This document shows positions 2,415-32,573 of a stretch of 64,000 bases of DNA, one piece after another. Both the position numbers and the translations under genes were made by a program. Source of the stretch: Selenomonadales bacterium (GTDB lineage: Bacteria; Bacillota; Negativicutes; Sporomusales; UBA7701); the NCBI GenBank assembly GCA_018434945.1, contig JAHDOI010000007.1, positions 1 through 64,000 on the forward strand, given 5' to 3'. The notes beneath the pieces are model-generated. The model did no database searches. It was not told the origin of the DNA and was given only the letters and a program-made list of their open reading frames with translations. Numbering within the stretch: the stretch's first letter is position 1; each line of letters opens with the position of its first letter.

Positions 2415-4259
2415 ATGGGTATCTTGCCCTGCGGAGCTGAACAGGGAAAGGGTTGGGTATACGCCATTATGGCGGCGGTGACGCTGGCGGCGGCCGGCTA
2501 TGCGGGAATGACTAATTTCCTGGCGTTTCATGCCGTCGCCGAAGGGATCACCATTGCCATCGCCTTTTCCATCGTGCTCATCGTTCTCAACACATACCAC
2601 AACATGAAAGACGATCTCATTCCTCTCATCGGGATCGCATATGCGTTCGCCGGCTGTTTCGATATCGCCCATACCCTGACTTACACGGGGATGGCGGTGT
2701 TCCCCGCCGTGGACAGCAATCTGCCGGCCCAGCTGTGGCTCGTCGCGAGGTACTTCGACAGCGCCGGGATGCTGCTGGCGGGGATGGCAATCGGCCGGGG
2801 CTGGCGGCATTCATACGTGCTGGCCGGGTATGCCGCCGCCGCTGCCGCTGCCGCTCTCGCCCTTTACGGGGACGTTTTCCCGGTGGCGTTCGTGGACGGG
2901 CAGGGTTTGACACCGTTTAAGGTATACAGCGAATATGCCATCAGCGCCGTTCTGGCGGCGAGCGTGGTTACGCTTGTCCTGAAGCGGGACCGTGTCGGAC
3001 CGCGCGTGTACCGGCCGCTGCTGGCTTTTTTCATCTTTTCCGTGGCCACCGAGCTGTCGCTGACCATGTATAAGTTCGGCGGCGATCTGGTGAACGTGAT
3101 CGGCCACCTGCTGAAGGTGACGGCATTCTTTTTCCTTTATCGGGCGGTGGTGGCGACCAGCCTGCAGGTGCCGTACGAGCGGATGAACGAGAAGGCCGCC
3201 GAGCTGGCCGCGGCCGACCGTCGGATGACGGAGACGCTGGCGAGCATATCGGACGGTTTCTTTGTCGTCGATAACGACTGGCGGGTGGTGTACGCCAACC
3301 CCGCGGCCATCGAGAGGTTTTGTTTCAAAGGGTTCGACGGACAGACAGGCAGAGGTCTCTGGGATATCTACCCTGACTCGCAGCCGTTTTACGATCAGTA
3401 CCACAAGGCCAAACGGGAAAACGCGGCCGCGTATTTCGAGGCTGTTTCTCCCGATACCGGCCGCTGGGTCGAGGTGCACGCTTACCCGTCGCCCGAGGGC
3501 TTGTCCGTTTATATCAGGGATATCGGCGAACAGAGGATATTCGAGGCCGAGCTGGCGCGGCTCGACAGGTTGAACACGGTGGGCGAGCTGGCGGCCGGCA
3601 TCGGCCATGAGATCAGGAATCCGCTGACGACGGTGCGGGGCTATCTGCAGCTGTTCGCGAGCAAAGGTAAATACGCCGAACATCGTGAGCAGTTCGCAAC
3701 GATGATCGAGGAGCTGGACCGGGCAAACGCGATTATTTCGGAGTATCTTTCGCTGGCGCGGACGAAGGCCGCGGAGCCGGGGCACGGCGACCTCAACGGC
3801 GTGCTGAAGGCGCTTTATCCGCTGCTTGAGGCGGACGCCGTCCGCGCCGGGCATACGCTGGCGCTGGCGAGGGGCGATATCCCCGCCGTCAGGTTCGACG
3901 ACCGCGAGATAAGACAGCTGGTGCTGAATCTGGCCCGCAACGGTCTGGAGGCCATGGAGCCGGGCGGGCGGCTGACGATCAGAACTTTTTGCGACAAGGA
4001 CGGCGCGGTGCTAGCCGTGAGCGATTCAGGCGGCGGGATTCCTCAGGAGGTGCTGGACAAGCTGGGGACGCCGTTTATGACGACCAAGGAGCACGGCACG
4101 GGGCTGGGGCTGGCGGTCTGCCGCCGGATAGCCGACAGGCACGGCGCGAAGTTGGAGGTCAGCACCTCGCCGGCGGGGACGACGTTTTTTCTGCGTTTCG
4201 GGCGCGGCGATTCCGCCGGGCGCGAAGATGCGGCAGACAGGTTTTTATCGACAGTCTGA
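2415..4259 (+). CDS. MASE3-PAS sensor histidine kinase
   Basis: A 614-residue membrane sensor kinase. Residues about 1-245 form a multi-helix MASE3-type sensory domain, with the characteristic HTLTYTGMAVFP segment near residue 96. A linker and PAS domain (about 260-385) follow, then the HisKA box with phosphoacceptor His in GHEIRNPLTTV (about 398). The HATPase domain shows N box NLARNGLEAM, G1 DSGGGIP and G2 GTGLGLAV. It should autophosphorylate in response to an unknown signal. No response regulator is adjacent, so it is an orphan kinase here and may feed a phosphorelay such as sporulation initiation; that is inference. ATG 2415 is preceded by GGAGGA. Confidence 0.88.
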   Translation: MGILPCGAEQGKGWVYAIMAAVTLAAAGYAGMTNFLAFHAVAEGITIAIAFSIVLIVLNTYHNMKDDLIPLIGIAYAFAGCFDIAHTLTYTGMAVFPAVDSNLPAQLWLVARYFDSAGMLLAGMAIGRGWRHSYVLAGYAAAAAAAALALYGDVFPVAFVDGQGLTPFKVYSEYAISAVLAASVVTLVLKRDRVGPRVYRPLLAFFIFSVATELSLTMYKFGGDLVNVIGHLLKVTAFFFLYRAVVATSLQVPYERMNEKAAELAAADRRMTETLASISDGFFVVDNDWRVVYANPAAIERFCFKGFDGQTGRGLWDIYPDSQPFYDQYHKAKRENAAAYFEAVSPDTGRWVEVHAYPSPEGLSVYIRDIGEQRIFEAELARLDRLNTVGELAAGIGHEIRNPLTTVRGYLQLFASKGKYAEHREQFATMIEELDRANAIISEYLSLARTKAAEPGHGDLNGVLKALYPLLEADAVRAGHTLALARGDIPAVRFDDREIRQLVLNLARNGLEAMEPGGRLTIRTFCDKDGAVLAVSDSGGGIPQEVLDKLGTPFMTTKEHGTGLGLAVCRRIADRHGAKLEVSTSPAGTTFFLRFGRGDSAGREDAADRFLSTV

Positions 4260-4291
4260 GGGATGCCGGTTGCCGGTATCCCTCTCTTGCG

Positions 4292-5212
4292 TTAACTATG
4301 CCGGGTTTTGGCGGGCGGGCTATCGCCGGCGGCTAATGATGCCAGGATGATTTTTTCGAGGGCAGCCAGTGCGGGCGAAAGCCATTTTTCGCGATGGAAA
4401 AGCATCAGAGCCTGAATTTCGATCGGAGTATCCGTCCAATTGAGGTTTATCAATTCGCCGCGCTTGATGTCTTCTTCAACGACGATTTTCGGCAGAAGCG
4501 ATATGCCAAGCCCGCTTTTGACACAGTGCTTTATTGCCTCGAGGCTGCCGAACTCCATGATGGTGCCGGTCTTGACGCCTTCCCTCGCCAGCAGTGTTTT
4601 CAGGTCGAGCGGGTAGCCGCTGTTTCCGTCCGGCAGGAGGAGGGTATGGCCGGCAAGGCTTAGGGGGGTCAGTACCGGATTTGCCGCCAGTTCGTGATCA
4701 GGTGAGGCAATAAACAGGGTTTCGCCGCGGAACAGGTGGATTTGCCGCAGCTGCTGCTGCACGGAGTTATTGTTGAGGCTAAACGCCACGTCGATGATGT
4801 TTTGCTGCAGCCACAGCGGAAAGTCCGTGCAGGTGCCTGTTTTGATGTTGAGGTGCACTTTCGGGTGGTTTAGGCGGTATTCCTTCAGCAGCGGCGGCAG
4901 CCAGAAGGCGCAGAGCGATTCGGAGGCGCCGATATTCAGGCAGCCGGAAAGCACGTCGGTTTCCTTGAATAACCCTTTTATTGCCTCGGCGTCTCTTACC
5001 AGGCTCTCGGCGAGCGGCAGGAGCTTTTGCCCTTTCCCGGTGAGGAAGACCTTTTTGCCGAGGCGCTCGAATAGTATTGCGCCGAGGTCTTCTTCAAGTA
5101 TATGGATATGCTCGGATACCGTCGACTGGGAATAGTTGAGCGCCTGGGCGGCTGCGCTGAAGTTCAGCAGGCGGGCTACGGAGAGAAAGGTTTGCAGGTG
5201 CTTCACGTACAT
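4292..5212 (-). CDS. LysR-family transcriptional regulator
   Basis: A 306-residue protein, normal for LysR regulators. The N-terminal winged HTH (about residues 1-60, containing SAAAQALNYSQSTVSEHIH) is followed by a periplasmic-binding-protein-like effector domain (about 90-295). ATG 5212 is chosen because it starts the HTH as in other family members; the open frame runs 55 codons further upstream through the promoter and operator. Its Shine-Dalgarno sequence is weak. It is divergent from an ACT-domain gene, with a long inverted repeat between them, which makes that gene the likely target. The effector is unknown. Confidence 0.88.
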   Translation of the reverse strand: MYVKHLQTFLSVARLLNFSAAAQALNYSQSTVSEHIHILEEDLGAILFERLGKKVFLTGKGQKLLPLAESLVRDAEAIKGLFKETDVLSGCLNIGASESLCAFWLPPLLKEYRLNHPKVHLNIKTGTCTDFPLWLQQNIIDVAFSLNNNSVQQQLRQIHLFRGETLFIASPDHELAANPVLTPLSLAGHTLLLPDGNSGYPLDLKTLLAREGVKTGTIMEFGSLEAIKHCVKSGLGISLLPKIVVEEDIKRGELINLNWTDTPIEIQALMLFHREKWLSPALAALEKIILASLAAGDSPPAKTRHS

Positions 5213-5234
5213 GTTGCCACATCCATCGGTTAAG

Positions 5235-5260
5235 CCGATTATTATGATCTTAATAATCGG
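5235..5260. promoter_or_regulatory. Probable LysR operator (26-bp inverted repeat)
   Basis: CCGATTATTA (5235-5244) and TAATAATCGG (5251-5260) are perfect 10-bp arms around a 6-bp centre, ending just before the -35 of the ACT-domain gene. This is the usual geometry for a LysR activator site and also covers the LysR gene's own upstream region. Confidence 0.7.
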
Positions 5261-5261
5261 T

Positions 5262-5291
5262 TTAACAAAAGTTCTAACGCCATGATAGAAT
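5262..5291 (+). promoter_or_regulatory. Promoter of the ACT-domain gene
   Basis: TTAACA (5262-5267), 18-bp spacer, TAGAAT (5286-5291). The near-consensus boxes directly abut the inverted repeat, consistent with an activator-dependent promoter. Confidence 0.5.
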
Positions 5292-5370
5292 GGAATCAGC
5301 AAAGATGCAAGCATTTTCCGGACGGCGTTTAGCCGGTGTGTTTGCAGATGGAAGAGGAGGCTAATGTAAA

Positions 5371-5787
5371 ATGGCATTGGATTTAAAAAGAGTTGAATAC
5401 TACAACATAACGGTCGATGGTCATGCCGGCGAAGGTTCTAAACTGCTGGCGGCGGTGGCCGGTTTTGGCGTCAATCTGCTGGCCTTCAGGACGGTCGCCG
5501 CGGAGGGCGTTCGCACCCGGTTCTCGCTTTTCCCTGACGACGGCCTAAAGCTGAGGGTCGGAGCGGAAAAGACGGGACTTTATATGGAGGGTCCTTATGC
5601 CGCATTGCTGCTCAAAGGTTACGACGATGAGGCGGGAGCGTTAGCGGATATATACGGGAAGCTTTCGCAGGCAGGTGTCGGTGTTTACGAATCCAGCGGC
5701 ATAGCCAACATAAAGGGAGGCTACGGTGTCGTGCTTTATTTGCCGCAGGAAGATTGCGAGAAGGTTGTGGCGGTTTTAAAAAGCTGA
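5371..5787 (+). CDS. ACT-domain protein, probable LysR target
   Basis: A 138-residue protein that looks like one or two ACT-type ligand-binding folds and nothing else: N-terminal strand-helix-strand (about residues 8-65) and a second, more typical ACT segment (about 73-135). Free-standing ACT proteins usually bind amino acids or other small molecules and regulate a partner enzyme. The start is fixed by AGAGGAGG 10 nt upstream. Its gene is divergent from a LysR regulator with a shared operator, so its expression is probably controlled by the LysR ligand. The assignment to the ACT fold is from sequence pattern only. Confidence 0.6.
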   Translation: MALDLKRVEYYNITVDGHAGEGSKLLAAVAGFGVNLLAFRTVAAEGVRTRFSLFPDDGLKLRVGAEKTGLYMEGPYAALLLKGYDDEAGALADIYGKLSQAGVGVYESSGIANIKGGYGVVLYLPQEDCEKVVAVLKS

Positions 5788-5835
5788 TTTTGACTGGAGA
5801 TACGGTGACATGCGGCAATCACAATACACACTTAG

Positions 5836-5860
5836 GGGATGCCGAGGGGCATCCCTTTTT
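5836..5860 (+). terminator. Rho-independent terminator (repeat copy 1)
   Basis: GGGATGCC (5836-5843) pairs with GGCATCCC (5848-5855), then TTTTT. Near-identical hairpins recur at 7163 and 8111, each followed by the same gene 3' end. Confidence 0.85.
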
Positions 5861-5868
5861 CACGGGGG

Positions 5869-5964
5869 TTATAGTGTTTTCACCCACTCTTCCAGTTTGG
5901 CCATTATCTCCTGGCGGGCTTCGTCAACGCTGCCGCCGTGCCATTCATGGCACGGCCGTCAATA
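5869..5964 (-). pseudogene. 3' remnant, copy 1, of the unknown gene at 8145-8537
   Basis: Reading leftwards from 5946, 25 codons (EWHGGSVDEARQEIMAKLEE then WVKTL and stop) are identical in protein to the last 25 residues of the intact gene at 8145-8537. The DNA differs only at synonymous positions. Upstream of that point the frame is broken by TGA, although a short IDGRA stretch still resembles the intact gene's IDADT in another frame. The junction lies in a perfect palindrome (GCCGTGCCAT..ATGGCACGGC). No start or promoter is left. Confidence 0.7.
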
Positions 5965-6139
5965 GTAGTGAATAGAGCGGAGAAATAAACTGGTATTATT
6001 TGGGTCAGCATTTTATAGTGAGTGCTGGCCTTCTAAATGCAGGGAAAAAATGGATTTTGTGTAATTTGTTGCAATAAAGGAATCCTTCTCCTGATAATCG
6101 GAGACCCAGATAATGTTGGCTTGAGCGATGGAGGCCAAG

Positions 6140-6451
6140 ATGACACTAACCCAGCTAAATGATTTGGATTCGCTTGTTAGATTAGGGGCGTTGGTCATCA
6201 TTGGCGTAACCGTCTACTTATGGAAAACAAAAAGAGTTATTGGTTATAATACAGCGCAAGTGTTGATTATTACCGCTTCTTTGCTAACTGGGATTACTGG
6301 TGCCATGCTTGTGGGAGGGCAATTTTCTGCGGGAGTGACTATTTTGCAGACTTCGCTTCTGTATTATGTTTTTAGAATCATGCATAAACGCTGGCAAAAG
6401 ATACAAGAATACGAGAAAATCGATGCCAATATCAAGGAGCGAATAAAATAA
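6140..6451 (+). CDS. Small membrane protein of unknown function (103 aa)
   Basis: The protein has two or three hydrophobic helices (about residues 16-32, 39-62 and possibly 67-80) and a basic C-terminal tail. ATG 6140 follows GGAGG (6130-6134) by 5 nt; an ATG 12 nt upstream is also possible. Codon use is AT-rich, unlike the GC-rich genes on both sides, which suggests acquisition by transfer. I do not recognise a family. It is the first of three AT-rich genes lying between two copies of a gene 3' end. Confidence 0.55.
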   Translation: MTLTQLNDLDSLVRLGALVIIGVTVYLWKTKRVIGYNTAQVLIITASLLTGITGAMLVGGQFSAGVTILQTSLLYYVFRIMHKRWQKIQEYEKIDANIKERIK

Positions 6452-6500
6452 AGGATAAGCGGTAAATGAATAATCTAGGTATACGAGAGGTGGGGCTGTT

Positions 6501-6836
6501 TTGGATGTCGACTTTAAAGGGAATCAATTATTATTAGATGGGCATTTCATTGACTTTCCGGGTTCAATAAAGAGTATCAAAATATTTAAAGACTTAGTTC
6601 TAGTCATGCTAACTGTTCCCAAGGGAATTATTAACAATCAAAATGTATATGCTGTAAGTGTTAATAACAAAAAAGTTATATGGAGAATCCAAGAGCCCGA
6701 TTTAATATATGATAATAGTCCTTATATGAATTTTTATGATGCCGCTGATGCCATTATTGTTGGCAATTGGAACGGAATTGCCTATACAATAAATGAATAT
6801 GACGGCACGAGGATTCAAGGTGTTCAAACTAAATGA
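6501..6836 (+). CDS. Small soluble protein, possible orphan immunity protein (111 aa)
   Basis: TTG start at 6501 with GAGAGGTGGGG shortly upstream. The protein looks all-beta: strands such as LLLDGHFIDF, LVLVMLTV and VIWRIQ, and a C-terminal IINEYDG-like turn, suggest a small beta-propeller-blade or beta-sandwich fold. Short, AT-rich single-domain genes of this appearance are frequent as immunity or orphan immunity genes of polymorphic toxins in Firmicutes, but no toxin is next to it, so the role is inference. Its stop overlaps the open frame of the next gene. Confidence 0.55.
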   Translation: MDVDFKGNQLLLDGHFIDFPGSIKSIKIFKDLVLVMLTVPKGIINNQNVYAVSVNNKKVIWRIQEPDLIYDNSPYMNFYDAADAIIVGNWNGIAYTINEYDGTRIQGVQTK

Positions 6837-6880
6837 ATTTAACTTTCCATCGGATAATGGGTAAGTACGTGGAGGTAAAA

Positions 6881-7117
6881 ATGACGGTAAAATGTCATTG
6901 TGAAGATACTTCTAAGATTACTAATTCCCTTGAGATTAGGGATATGATAGACAGTTACCTAATTGAGCTTGATATTAACGGTAATACATGGGACACACTT
7001 TATAAGTGTAAATCTTGCGGTGCGTACTGGGAGGAACGATATACCGGTGGGAGATGGGATGGCTGGCCGGAGTTATATAAGGTCACTGCGGACTATGTAA
7101 ATGAGAAGTGGGAATAG
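6881..7117 (+). CDS. Small zinc-knuckle-like protein, possible immunity protein (78 aa)
   Basis: ATG 6881 has GGAGG (6871-6875) at 5-nt spacing; an upstream ATG (6833, overlapping the previous stop) would give 94 residues but lacks a Shine-Dalgarno sequence. The protein carries Cys-His-Cys near its start (KCHCED) and a CKSCGAYWEERY motif in the middle, suggesting a small metal-bound or knuckle fold, then GGRWDGWPELYKV. A CxxCGxYWE core with a following WPE is reminiscent of small immunity proteins, but I cannot assign a family. AT-rich like its neighbours. Confidence 0.55.
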   Translation: MTVKCHCEDTSKITNSLEIRDMIDSYLIELDINGNTWDTLYKCKSCGAYWEERYTGGRWDGWPELYKVTADYVNEKWE

Positions 7118-25894: not shown

Positions 25895-25924
25895 TTGACA
25901 TTGACGGGCGGGAAATGGTATTTT
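25895..25924 (+). promoter_or_regulatory. Sigma-A promoter of the hrcA operon
   Basis: TTGACA (25895-25900), 18-bp spacer, TATTTT (25919-25924), with the CIRCE operator starting 11 bp downstream so that HrcA would cover the start of transcription. Confidence 0.75.
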
Positions 25925-25935
25925 TTTAATAGGTG

Positions 25936-25962
25936 TTAGCACTCTATTGAGAAGAGTGCTAA
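25936..25962 (+). promoter_or_regulatory. CIRCE operator (HrcA binding site)
   Basis: TTAGCACTC (25936-25944), 9-bp spacer, GAGTGCTAA (25954-25962): a perfect match to the CIRCE consensus. It lies between the promoter and hrcA, implying autoregulated heat-shock control of the whole operon including the chaperonin. Confidence 0.97.
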
Positions 25963-26007: not shown

Positions 26008-27039
26008 ATGCTCGATGAACGCAAACGCAGGATTCTCCAGACGATCGTGGACGATTATGTGAGCACCGCCGAACCGGTCGGGTCGCGGACGCTTGCCCGC
26101 AAGTACTCGCTCGGCCTCAGCCCGGCGACCATCCGTAACGAGATGTCCGACCTCGAGGTGCTGGGTTTTCTGGAGCAGCCCCATACTTCGGCCGGCCGCA
26201 TCCCGTCGCCGCAGGGTTATCGTTTCTATGTCGACTGCCTGCTGGCGCCGCCGAAGATATCGGAGCACGATGTCGGCGTGATCACGAACTGGTACGAGAC
26301 GAGGGTCCGCAGCATCGAGGAGGTCTTCCAGGAGACGGCGAAGATCATCTCCCGCATGACCCGCAGCGTTTCGCTGGTAACCGCGCCGCAGCTTTCAAAG
26401 TCGCTGTTCAAGTATCTGCAGTTCCTGCCGCTCGACGAGCGGCGGGCGATCGTCGTGGTGGTCACCGACGCGGGGTTCGTCGAGAACAAAGTCATCGATA
26501 TTCCCGAAGGCACCTCTTTCCAGGATCTCCAGCAGATCGCGGCCAACATCAACGAACGGCTGGCCGGCCTGAGCTTCGATGAGATCAAGCATTCGCTGCT
26601 CAGGGAGATCAGGAACGATATCCTCACAAACCCGGCGCTGTTCGAGACGGCGCTGGCGATACTGCGCCAGGCGCTGGCGGTGGAGCGGGCCGAGAAGGTT
26701 TACCTCGGCGGCACGACCCAGCTTTTGGACCAGCCGGAGTTCCGCGATGTGGAGAAGATCCGCGACCTGCTCGCGATGCTGGAGGAGGAGAAACTGCTGT
26801 CCGATATCCTCCATATGCAGGACGGCGAAGGCGTCGTCGTGACTATCGGCCAGGAGAACAAGTACAGCGGCATCAAGAACTGCAGCGTGGTGCAGGCGAC
26901 TTACCGCGTCGAGGGCCAGGTGATCGGCACGCTGGCTGTGCTCGGCCCCACCCGCATGGAGTACGGCAAGACGATGGCCGTGCTGGAGTTCATGCATCGC
27001 CACCTCGGCGAGACGCTGAAGAAGTTCAAGGTTTACTGA
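26008..27039 (+). CDS. hrcA: Heat-shock repressor HrcA
   Basis: A 343-residue repressor: N-terminal winged HTH (about 1-75; STAEPVGSRTLARKY, LSPATIRNEMSDLE, SAGRIPSPQGYRFYVD) and a GAF-like C-terminal dimerisation domain. HrcA binds CIRCE and is released when chaperonin becomes limiting on heat shock. In most species its folding partner is GroEL. Here the next gene is a group III chaperonin, so that protein could be the sensor partner (inference). AGGGAGG fixes ATG 26008. Confidence 0.97.
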   Translation: MLDERKRRILQTIVDDYVSTAEPVGSRTLARKYSLGLSPATIRNEMSDLEVLGFLEQPHTSAGRIPSPQGYRFYVDCLLAPPKISEHDVGVITNWYETRVRSIEEVFQETAKIISRMTRSVSLVTAPQLSKSLFKYLQFLPLDERRAIVVVVTDAGFVENKVIDIPEGTSFQDLQQIAANINERLAGLSFDEIKHSLLREIRNDILTNPALFETALAILRQALAVERAEKVYLGGTTQLLDQPEFRDVEKIRDLLAMLEEEKLLSDILHMQDGEGVVVTIGQENKYSGIKNCSVVQATYRVEGQVIGTLAVLGPTRMEYGKTMAVLEFMHRHLGETLKKFKVY

Positions 27040-27046
27040 CCGCGGG

Positions 27047-27080
27047 CAACCGGGCAGGCTCAGACGAGCCTGCCCGGTTG
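27047..27080 (+). other. Perfect 15-bp hairpin without T-run between hrcA and the chaperonin
   Basis: CAACCGGGCAGGCTC (27047-27061) and GAGCCTGCCCGGTTG (27066-27080) form a perfect stem with an AGAC loop. No T-run follows, so it is not a normal terminator. It may be an mRNA processing or stabilising structure that sets different levels of hrcA and chaperonin. Confidence 0.75.
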
Positions 27081-27141
27081 CGGCGGCTGTCATACATAAT
27101 GAAGCAACAGTTAAGAATAAGTATATAGCAGGAGGAATCGT

Positions 27142-28725
27142 ATGAACCTGAAACAAGCGGGCAGCGGCGCCGAGGTGGACGAACGCCTGGCGGCCCTGCT
27201 CACCAACGCCGGCGCCGTCAGGGCCATCACGGCCTCGGTGGAAGGCACGATCGGTCCTAAAGGCCTCGATACGATGCTGGTGGACCGCTTCGGCGAGGTT
27301 ATCATCACCAATGACGGCGTGACTATTCTCGATAAGATGGATGTCAACCATCCCGCCGCCAAGATGCTGATAAATATAGCCAAGGCTCAGCAGGCCGAGG
27401 TGGGCGACGGCACGACGACCGCCACCATCATGGCCGGAGGGCTGGTGGCCGAGGGTGTCAACCAGGTCATCCGCGGCGTACCGGTGGCGCGGGTTATCGA
27501 GGGCGTCAGGCACGGCATCGCCGTGGCCCTGGATGCCGTAAAGGAACGCGCCCGCCAGGTGAGTTCGGTCGATGACCCGGTGCTTACGAATATCGCCGTC
27601 ATCGCCGGCCGCGAACACCGCGATATCGCCGAGCTCGTGGTCGCCGCCGCCCGGCTTATCGGTCTGGAGAAGCTCCAGGAAGCCAACTTCAAGCTGTCGG
27701 ATATCGTGACCGCCGAGGAAGGCGCTGAGAACGAGGTTTTCATGGGCGTCATCGTCGATAAGGAGCGGATGAGCAAGGATATGCCGCAGACGGTCGAGGG
27801 CGCCAGGATGTTGCTGGTGGACGATGCGCTGGAGCCGGAGGAGATCGAGGACGGCGCGCTCGGCACCGAGGCGGGTTTCAAGCGCTACATAGAGCTCCAG
27901 GAGGAGTTCAAGGGCAATGTCCGCAAGTTGGCGGCCATGGGCGTCAAGGCGGTGCTGGTCGACCGCGGCGTCCACGATGCGGCGGAGGAGATCCTCTCCG
28001 ATGCCGGCATCATGGTGGTGCAGCGGGTGTCGAACAAGGATATGCGGCGGGTGGCCGAACATTGCGGCGCGCGCGCCATCAAGCGCACCGGGCTTAAGAA
28101 GGATCCGGCCGAGATCGAGAAATACCTCGGTTTCGCGGATAAGGTCTATGAGGACGAAAAACTGGAGCAGATCCGTATCCTCGGCGGCAAAGGCAAGCCG
28201 ATGGCCACCATCCTGGTGGGCGCGGCCACGGAAGAGGTGGTCGGCGAGCGGGAGCGCATCGCCAAGGACGCCGCTTCGAGCCTGCAGGCCGCGGTCAAGG
28301 GCGGCTGCGTGCCGGGAGGCGGCGCGGTGGAGGTCGCCATAGCCCGCCAGGTCGAGAAGGCGCGGGAGAATATCAAGGGGATGGCCGCCTACGGCGTGGA
28401 TTGCGTGGCAAGCGCGCTCAGGCGTCCCCTTTCCCAGATCGTGGAGAACGCCGGCTTCAATCCCCTGGAGAAGGTGGAGGAGGTCATGGCGGCTCAGGCG
28501 GCGCAGGGCTCGGATTCGCTCGCGGTGGACTGCGACAGCGGTGAGATCGCCGATATGCTGGCGCGCGGCGTGGTCGACCCGGTGCCTGTCAAGCTGCACG
28601 CCATCAAAGCTGCCGGCGAGGTGGCGGTGGCGATTCTCCGCATCGATACGATCATCAAGAAGAAGGAAGAAGGCCCCAACGCCGCCAAGCAGGCGGCGGG
28701 CGACGCGGGACTGCCGGATTTTTAG
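27142..28725 (+). CDS. Group III (archaeal-type) chaperonin in the dnaK operon
   Basis: A 527-residue chaperonin that follows the thermosome/CCT pattern rather than GroEL: early [34 protein letters not shown], ATPase motif [13 protein letters not shown] near residue 87, and C-terminal [17 protein letters not shown]. The apical domain is the lid-forming type, so no GroES partner is expected. Such 'group III' chaperonins are known in a few Firmicutes (first studied in Carboxydothermus), typically inside the hsp70 operon as here. It should fold proteins as a double ring in the cytoplasm. GGAGGAATCGT precedes the ATG. The tail lacks the GGM repeat of GroEL. A GroEL may exist elsewhere in the genome. 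Confidence 0.93.
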
Positions 28726-28782
28726 CCGGCGCCTGCGCCCCGGTGTGGGCCGATTGAATACGTGCGAGGTGATATTGTTTAT

Positions 28783-29349
28783 ATGGAGGAACGGTATAAG
28801 GCCGACAAACAGCAAGGCGCGGCTGCGCCGGGATCTGATGCGCCGCAGGGCGAACCGGGCGGGCAGGTGTGCTTCGATGGCGCCGAGATGAAGGAAATGA
28901 TGGAGTCGCTCGACGGCAAGAACCGCGAACTGGACGAACTGAACAACCGGCTTCTGAGGCTGCAGGCTGACTTCGACAACTTCCGCCGCCGCAGCCGGCA
29001 GGAGAAGGAGGAGCTTTCCCAGGTCGTGGCTTACGGCATATTCAAGGAATTGCTGCCTGTCCTCGACAATTTTGAGCGGGCCCTCGCCGCCCCCGGACAG
29101 GACGCCGCCCAGATCCGCACCGGGGTGGAGCTTGTTTACCGCCAGCTCGGCGGGAGCCTGGAGCGGTTCGGCGTGAAGCCGATCGCCGCGGTTGGCAACC
29201 CGTTCGATCCGGCCTTCCACGAGGCCGTGATGCGGGTGGAGGACGTCTGCCAGGCCGACGGCCTGATCGTCGAGGAGCTGCAGAAGGGTTACGAGATGGG
29301 CGGAAAGGTATTGCGTCCCAGTATGGTAAAAGTCGTCAGCAATAGCTAA
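28783..29349 (+). CDS. grpE: Nucleotide exchange factor GrpE
   Basis: A 188-residue protein: an acidic N-terminal part, a long coiled coil (about 40-90) with LQADFDNFRRRSRQEKEE, and the C-terminal beta domain with GVKPIAAVGNPFDPAFHEAV and GYEMGGKVLRPSMVKV. GrpE releases ADP from DnaK. ATG 28783 is chosen (GAGGTGAT upstream); a GTG seven codons earlier is the longer alternative. It lies 57 bp after the chaperonin and 35 bp before dnaK. Confidence 0.96.
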   Translation: MEERYKADKQQGAAAPGSDAPQGEPGGQVCFDGAEMKEMMESLDGKNRELDELNNRLLRLQADFDNFRRRSRQEKEELSQVVAYGIFKELLPVLDNFERALAAPGQDAAQIRTGVELVYRQLGGSLERFGVKPIAAVGNPFDPAFHEAVMRVEDVCQADGLIVEELQKGYEMGGKVLRPSMVKVVSNS

Positions 29350-29384: not shown

Positions 29385-31229
29385 ATGGCAAAAGTCATCG
29401 GTATAGACCTCGGTACGACCAATTCGGTGGTCGCCTTCATGGAGGGCGGCGAGCCGGTGGTTATCGCCAACGCGGAAGGCAGCCGCCTAACGGCGTCGGT
29501 GGTCGGTTTCTCCAAGACGGGCGAGCGGCTGGTGGGCCAGCTGGCCAAACGGCAGGCCGTTTCCAACCCCGACCGCACCATAAGCTCGATCAAGCGCCAT
29601 ATGGGCACGAATTACACGGTGCGGATCGATGATAAGGACTACACTCCCCAGGAAATATCGGCGATGATCCTCCAGAAGATGAAGACCGACGCCGAAGCCT
29701 ACCTGGGTGAAAAGATAACGAAAGCGGTCATCACCGTGCCCGCTTATTTCACCGACAGTCAGCGCCAGGCTACCAAGGACGCCGGCGCCATCGCCGGCCT
29801 GGAAGTGCTGCGCATCATCAACGAGCCGACGGCGGCCGCTCTGGCCTACGGCCTCGACAAAGGCGAGGATCATACCATCCTGGTGTTCGACCTCGGGGGC
29901 GGCACATTCGACGTATCCATCCTCGAACTGGGCGACGGCGTTTTCGAGGTTAAGTCCACAAGTGGCAACGGCCGCCTGGGCGGCGACGACTTCGACGACC
30001 GGGTGATGAACTGGCTGGTGGCCGAGTTCAAGAAGGAGAGCGGCATCGACCTGACCAAGGACCGCATGGCGATGCAGCGCCTCAAGGAGGCGGCCGAGAA
30101 GGCGAAGATCGAGCTGTCGGGCGTGCTGACGACCAACGTTAACCTGCCGTTCATCACCGCCGACCAGTCGGGGCCGAAGCATCTCGACGTCAACCTGACC
30201 CGCGCCAAATTCGAGGAGCTGACCGCCGATCTTGTCGAAGCGACGATGGGCCCCACCCGTCAGGCGCTGTCCGACGCCGGCCTCGCTCCCAAGGACATCG
30301 ACAAGGTCATCCTCGTGGGCGGTTCGACCCGTATTCCGGCCGTGCAGGAGGCGATCAAAAAGTTCCTCGGCAAGGAGCCGCATCGCGGCATCAACCCCGA
30401 CGAGTGCGTGGCCGTGGGCGCCGCTATCCAGGCCGGCGTGCTGGTGGGCGAGGTCAAGGATGTGCTGCTGCTCGACGTCACGCCGCTGTCGCTGGGCATC
30501 GAGACGCTGGGCGGCGTGTTCACGAAGATCATCGACCGCAATACCACCATCCCGACGTCGAAGAGCCAGGTGTTTTCGACCGCGTCCGACAACCAGCCGT
30601 CGGTGGATATCCACGTGCTGCAGGGCGAGCGCGAGATGGCTTCTTATAACAAGACGCTGGGACGCTTCGAGCTGTCCGGCATCCCGCCGGCGCCGCGGGG
30701 CGTGCCGCGCATCGAGGTCACGTTCGACATCGACGCCAACGGCATCGTTCACGTATCCGCCAAGGATCTCGGCACCGGCAAGGAGCAGAAGATCACTATC
30801 ACCGCTTCCGGCGGCCTGGCCAAGGACGAGGTGGAGCGGATGGTGAAGGAGGCCGAGTCCCACGCCGCCGAGGACAAGAAGCGCCGCGAGGAGATCGAGA
30901 CGCGCAACAGCGCCGATTCGCTCGTTTACCAGGCGGAGAAGACGATCAAGGAGCTGGGCGATAAGGCCGACAAGGCGCTGGTGGAGAAGGTCCAGCAGGC
31001 GGCCGACAAGCTGAAGGAAACCCTCAAGGGCACCGATATCGAGAAGATAAAGGCCGATACCGAGGAACTGACCAAGCCGCTGTACGAACTGACTTCCTCG
31101 GTCTATAACCAGGCCGGCCCGCAGGGCGCGGCCGGGCCGGAAGCGGCTCCGGGCGGCGAGGAAGCCCCGAAGGACGAGAAGGTCGTCGACGCGGATTATA
31201 AAGTGATGGACGACGATAAGAAGAAGTAA
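29385..31229 (+). CDS. dnaK: Molecular chaperone DnaK (Hsp70)
   Basis: A 614-residue Hsp70 of normal length: [12 protein letters not shown] at the start, [14 protein letters not shown] and [11 protein letters not shown] in the ATPase domain (about 1-355), the hydrophobic linker [15 protein letters not shown], the substrate-binding domain and a C-terminal lid ending in an acidic tail. It folds and protects proteins with DnaJ and GrpE. AAGGAGG gives a strong ribosome site. A hairpin element separates it from dnaJ, which could reduce dnaJ expression relative to dnaK. Confidence 0.98.
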
Positions 31230-31373: not shown

Positions 31374-31433
31374 GGCATTCCTTCTAGTTTTGAGATTTTT
31401 CGGCTGTATTGCCGGCTTATGGGATGGTGTGGA

Positions 31434-32573
31434 GTGAGCAAAAAAGACTATTACGAGGCGCTCGGGGTGTCCAAGTCGGCCTCGGACGATGAGATAAAAA
31501 AGGCGTTCCGCAAGCTGGCCCGCCAGTACCATCCTGACGTCAACCGCGACGACCCCAAGGCGGCGGAGGCGAAGTTCAAGGAGATCAACGAGGCTTACGA
31601 GGTACTGTCCGACCCCGAGAAGCGCCGCCAGTACGACCAGTTCGGTCACGCCGCTTTCGACGCGGCGTCGGGCGGCGGTCCTGGCGGCTTCGGCGGCTTT
31701 GGCGGCGGGGCGGGCGGCTTTGGGGATATCTTCGATATGTTTTTCGGTCAGTCAGGCTTCGGCGGCGGGCGTCCCGCCGGACCCGAGCGTGGTTCGGACC
31801 TGCGCTACGACATGGAGGTAACCTTCGAGCAGGCCGCCTTCGGGCTGGAAACCGAGATCCAGGTGCCGAGGACGGAGGAGTGCCCGACGTGCCGCGGCAC
31901 CGGCGCCGCCGCCGGCACCCACCCCGAGACGTGCCCCAACTGCCGCGGTACCGGCCAGACACAGGTGGTGCAGAACACCCCGTTCGGCCGCATGGTCAAC
32001 GTCAAGACGTGCGAACGCTGCCGGGGCGAGGGCAAGTTCGTCCGCACCCCCTGCAACGAGTGCAACGGACGCGGCAAGGTCAGGAACCGGCGCCGCATCA
32101 AGATCAAGATTCCGGCCGGGGTCGACACCGGTTCGCGGCTGCGCGTCGCCCACGAGGGCGAGGCCGGGGAGCGCGGCGGCCCGCCCGGCGACCTGTATGT
32201 TTATATTTTCGTGAAACAGCACAAGCTGTTTACGCGCGAGAACGACGACGTGATCTGCGAGGTGCCGATAAGCATCGTGCAGGCTTCCCTCGGCGACGAG
32301 ATCGAGGTGCCAACCCTCGACGGGCAGGTGAAAGTGCGCATCCCGGAGGGTACCCAGTCGGGCACGACTCTGCGGCTGAAGGACAAGGGCATCCCCCACC
32401 TCAGGGGCCACGGACGCGGCGATCAGCATATCCGTGTCAAGGTGGTCACCCCCAAAAAGCTCACCGACCGCCAGCGCGAGCTGCTGACGGAGTTCGCCCG
32501 TCTTGGCGGCGAAGACGTTAACCCGGAGGAGAAGGGTTTCTTCAAAAAGGTGAAGGACGCGTTCGGGGTGTAA
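31434..32573 (+). CDS. dnaJ: Co-chaperone DnaJ
   Basis: A 379-residue type I J-protein: J domain (about 1-68) with the HPD tripeptide in QYHPDVN near residue 33, a G/F-rich stretch (about 77-105), four CxxCxGxG zinc repeats (about 149-215), and the C-terminal substrate-binding domains. It delivers substrates to DnaK and stimulates its ATPase. GTG 31434 gives the usual [12 protein letters not shown] beginning; an ATG five codons upstream is the alternative, and neither has a strong ribosome site. Confidence 0.96.

Follow-up and report, generated by a model that had tools for sequence, protein, structure and literature searches.

The Carboxydothermus hydrogenoformans chaperonin, Ch-CPN, forms a 16-mer that uses ATP to refold proteins. 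The HrcA/CIRCE regulon of Bacillus subtilis comprises the hrcA-grpE-dnaK-dnaJ and groESL operons, each preceded by a CIRCE operator, and the mRNA of its dnaK operon is processed directly after hrcA. Ch-CPN (PDB 5X9U, 5X9V) belongs to the Group III chaperonins, for which a location in the DnaK operon is the rule; An et al. counted 195 of them in 2017, in the DnaK operon in all but one case, and described a nucleotide-sensing loop shorter by six residues and a shorter lid as features of the group (PMC5635000). Co-regulation of the Group III chaperonin with DnaK was proposed earlier (PMC5220055). The solved structure closest by sequence to the protein described below is that of ACIII, an ancestral Group III chaperonin (PDB 9RWQ), which, unlike the gene product considered here, is a reconstructed protein and does not stem from a natural gene; the best extant match of ACIII is from Thermosinus carboxydivorans (PMC12696368). 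For Bacillus, Chlamydia and Campylobacter, GroE is reported to stimulate HrcA (PMC8533110 and papers cited there).

The window, i.e. the whole stretch of 64,000 nucleotides that was analysed (contig JAHDOI010000007.1 of the Selenomonadales bacterium assembly GCA_018434945.1), carries on its forward strand, at positions 27142-28725, a gene with an ATG start whose product of 527 amino acids is a genuine bacterial Group III (archaeal-like) chaperonin, as assigned from profile matches, a tree and an alignment. The thermosome/CCT-type motifs that the sequence-only reading had quoted for this gene occur exactly in the translation of the 527-residue open reading frame. The Pfam family Cpn60_TCP1 spans the full length of the protein (381 bits), and NCBIfam thermosome models score 321 bits versus at most 175 bits for the GroEL models; the protein stays below all curated cut-offs of the thermosome and GroEL models alike, as is expected for a third chaperonin group. 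The top PDB matches were 9rwq (684 bits) and then 5x9u (Ch-CPN, 484 bits), with archaeal thermosome structures matching at 253 bits or less. (Note that the PDB molecule name of 9RWQ is ACII, yet PMC12696368 assigns this entry to ACIII; the sequence match found here agrees with the ACIII label.)

In the alignment, the nucleotide-sensing loop shows a six-residue gap relative to thermosomes and an IAGRE motif; the arginine at the loop position of Ch-CPN Arg155 is present, and R157 is invariant. A predicted built-in lid segment is there but shorter than in Group II, with deletions of 3+1 residues that Ch-CPN has as well; GroEL is without most of this segment. The ATP-binding and catalytic motifs NDGVTI and GDGTTT and the catalytic Asp are intact. 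The short nucleotide-sensing loop, the shortened lid and the ATPase motifs are common to this protein and Ch-CPN, which falls into the same clade but is more divergent, with a long branch in the tree. No functional difference between the two is known. Archaeal Group II thermosomes have the built-in type of lid and TCP-1-like motifs in common with the protein but keep the longer nucleotide-sensing loop and form a separate clade. A variant of the near-universal NDGVTI motif, NAGVTI, was seen in two other Group III chaperonins (L022 and L024, from genomes G096 and G017), which pair in the tree with a support of 99/96.

A maximum-likelihood tree was inferred from 52 chaperonins (25 Group III, 18 archaeal and 9 GroEL, the latter including the GroEL of this genome). 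Three clades separate, and the protein falls within the Group III clade (99/98 support, present in 98% of the bootstrap trees), as the earlier assignment to Group III had anticipated. A placement in the GroEL group (group I) was rejected, as the tree sets the protein apart from all nine GroEL rows. One might still read it as a divergent GroEL or as a recently acquired archaeal thermosome, given that a single Pfam family covers all chaperonins. This reading has next to no chance of being correct: the tree placement, in a strongly supported clade apart from both the 18 archaeal and the 9 GroEL rows, refutes it, and identity reaches 82% with chaperonins from other families of the same order and about 70% with others in the phylum, versus 31-37% with archaeal thermosomes.

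The Group III chaperonin gene is the second gene of the order hrcA-cpn-grpE-dnaK-dnaJ, all on one strand, so that its reported position between hrcA and grpE holds and its location in the hsp70 (dnaK) operon is that of the group. The first gene, hrcA (26008-27039), was identified by profile matches and encodes a full-length heat-inducible transcription repressor (TIGR00331, 337 bits; cut-off 197). Downstream of the chaperonin gene lie grpE (28762-29349; profile matches, with the GTG start as listed, although the true start may differ), dnaK (29385-31229; identified by its translation, which as a tblastn query matches relatives) and dnaJ (31419-32573), whose translation shows a J domain, a G/F region and CxxCxGxG repeats. 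A CIRCE operator, TTAGCACTC-N9-GAGTGCTAA, was found by pattern scan at positions 25936-25962 of the forward strand and also occurs in relatives; it is a perfect inverted repeat with a 9-nt spacer (0 mismatches, 0 expected by chance) and ends 45 nt upstream of the hrcA start. Directly upstream of it, a consensus scan found a promoter-like site, TTGACA-18-TATTTT (25895-25924, forward strand), for which position alone argues, since one such site was found and 1.1 were expected in shuffles. The same scan found no separate promoter for the chaperonin gene. The perfect CIRCE at the promoter and the full-length repressor of the HrcA family support the predicted CIRCE control of this operon. As in B. 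subtilis, hrcA is the first gene and a CIRCE lies upstream of both the hrcA and the groE operon; the two differ in that here the Group III gene is inserted between hrcA and grpE and a third CIRCE precedes a second dnaK.

The arrangement is common among relatives. Besides the genome of the window, 52 of the 149 genomes in a sample of the phylum contain a Group III gene, as do 52 of 120 in a sample of the class, in which the genome itself is counted. The order CIRCE-hrcA-cpn-grpE-dnaK was found in 28 of 29 loci of the phylum sample (L009-L037), the exception (L010) having no hrcA within the 570 bases up to the locus end, in all nine loci from closer relatives (L118-L126) and, as far as the contigs reach, in 10 of 11 loci from a genome collection, including Paenibacillus, Aneurinibacillus and Peptococcaceae (L045 is cut by a contig end, and the chaperonin frame of L073 is broken). 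The statement in the sequence-only reading that Group III chaperonins have been described in few bacteria is thus out of date, given the 195 members published in 2017 (PMC5635000) and the 52/149 genomes of the phylum found here. Some 200 bacteria with this arrangement have been published, and it is widespread in the phylum; the gene is thus an ordinary addition to a published family and ordinary for its lineage.

Two further Group III genes depart from the usual form. One, in a metagenome-assembled genome of an uncultured bacterium (L038, 4977-6557), lies outside the hsp70 operon next to murI-like and rph-like genes (named by eye from their translations) with no CIRCE nearby, and would by this context be a natural exception to HrcA control. 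The other (G015:C1:1799374-1800880) is split into two adjacent open frames and is either a pseudogene or the product of a sequencing error.

The genome, a draft in 100 contigs, was searched by protein family and by pattern. A canonical groES-groEL pair is present with its own perfect CIRCE. In all, the pattern search yielded three perfect CIRCE sites: one precedes hrcA, one groES-groEL and one a second dnaK, which is followed by a dnaJ-like gene. The third site is located at L006 3652-3678 (G000:C3), with the second dnaK and the dnaJ-like gene at 3980-6895. A gene for a large serine recombinase (L006 1365-3260, minus strand) adjoins this site and the second dnaK, which suggests a mobile element near the second dnaK operon. 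In the phylum sample, each of the 52 genomes with a Group III gene also had at least one GroEL; none was without it. For the 26 genomes with listed CIRCE positions, which were compared by eye (the Group III site of G070 being taken from L035), the Group III operon and every groEL were each preceded, at the distance expected, by a CIRCE with 0-2 mismatches; no groEL operon without a CIRCE was found among these 26.

These observations bear on the regulatory link to HrcA suggested by the sequence-only reading, spelled out here as the proposal that the Group III chaperonin, together with or instead of GroEL, helps HrcA to fold or to bind CIRCE. The proposal draws on the position of the chaperonin gene next to hrcA, seen in nearly all of the Group III loci that were compared, which probably places the two on the same mRNA, and on the stimulation of HrcA by GroE reported elsewhere (PMC8533110); no paper containing both CIRCE and a Group III chaperonin was found in the literature searched. 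We nevertheless consider it improbable. GroEL is kept in 52/52 genomes that carry a Group III gene and is preceded by a CIRCE in all cases that could be checked, the adjacency of the genes is equally well explained by co-regulation with DnaK, and no sequence feature points to a contact with HrcA. Because groES-groEL has its own perfect CIRCE here and GroEL occurs in every Group III genome sampled, the usual HrcA-GroEL loop appears intact and the sequence does not require a Group III sensor. By analogy, the GroEL-HrcA loop reported for Bacillus, Chlamydia and Campylobacter can operate unchanged in this organism, and nothing read from these genomes makes a link between the Group III chaperonin and HrcA more likely than mere co-expression with DnaK.

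Between hrcA and the chaperonin gene, just past the hrcA stop codon, lies a perfect 16-bp hairpin with a 4-nt loop (27046-27081, forward strand; z = -6.2 against shuffles). It is kept, with sequence changes, in members of the genus (L118-L120): in L119 an A-U pair is replaced by G-C and a U-A pair by C-G, and the hairpins of L118 and L119 have one inner mismatch each. Compared with shuffles, the L120 hairpin and the shorter ones of L123 and L126 stand out less (z -1.3 to -2.1). Hairpins also occur in several more distant loci with a long gap between hrcA and the chaperonin gene (L014, L030, L033), but most of the more distant loci have a gap of <50 nt and no hairpin. A search of Rfam at this position revealed no credible RNA family, with one miRNA family far under the cut-off. 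An intrinsic terminator was set aside, because no T-run follows the hairpin, which is therefore not a typical terminator. It is possibly an element of mRNA processing or stability and may decouple the expression of the repressor from that of the chaperones; by analogy with the processing in B. subtilis, it may shield the chaperone-coding segment of the mRNA as the hrcA segment is degraded.

Very probably, the gene encodes a standard Group III chaperonin made together with DnaK under HrcA/CIRCE, with HrcA most likely tuned by GroEL. As the second gene of the hrcA-cpn-grpE-dnaK-dnaJ operon it would be controlled by CIRCE and HrcA; judging from homologues, HrcA would repress this operon, the groESL operon and the second dnaK operon, and heat stress would lift the repression, so that the chaperonin would be made alongside the DnaK machine. 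Clients, perhaps handed over by DnaK (a speculative step), would most likely be folded by ATP-driven closing of the built-in lid, and the activity of HrcA would most likely still be tuned by canonical GroEL, both as in homologous systems. Points against this explanation are the draft state of the genome and the hairpin, which could uncouple chaperonin expression from hrcA.

If the Group III chaperonin did act on HrcA, an archaeal-like chaperonin would have become part of the feedback that controls a bacterial heat-shock response. The matter bears on the division of labor between two chaperonin types under one repressor and on whether HrcA responds to one or to both of them, a question that, since GroEL was present in all Group III bacteria sampled here, can only be asked in organisms with both types.
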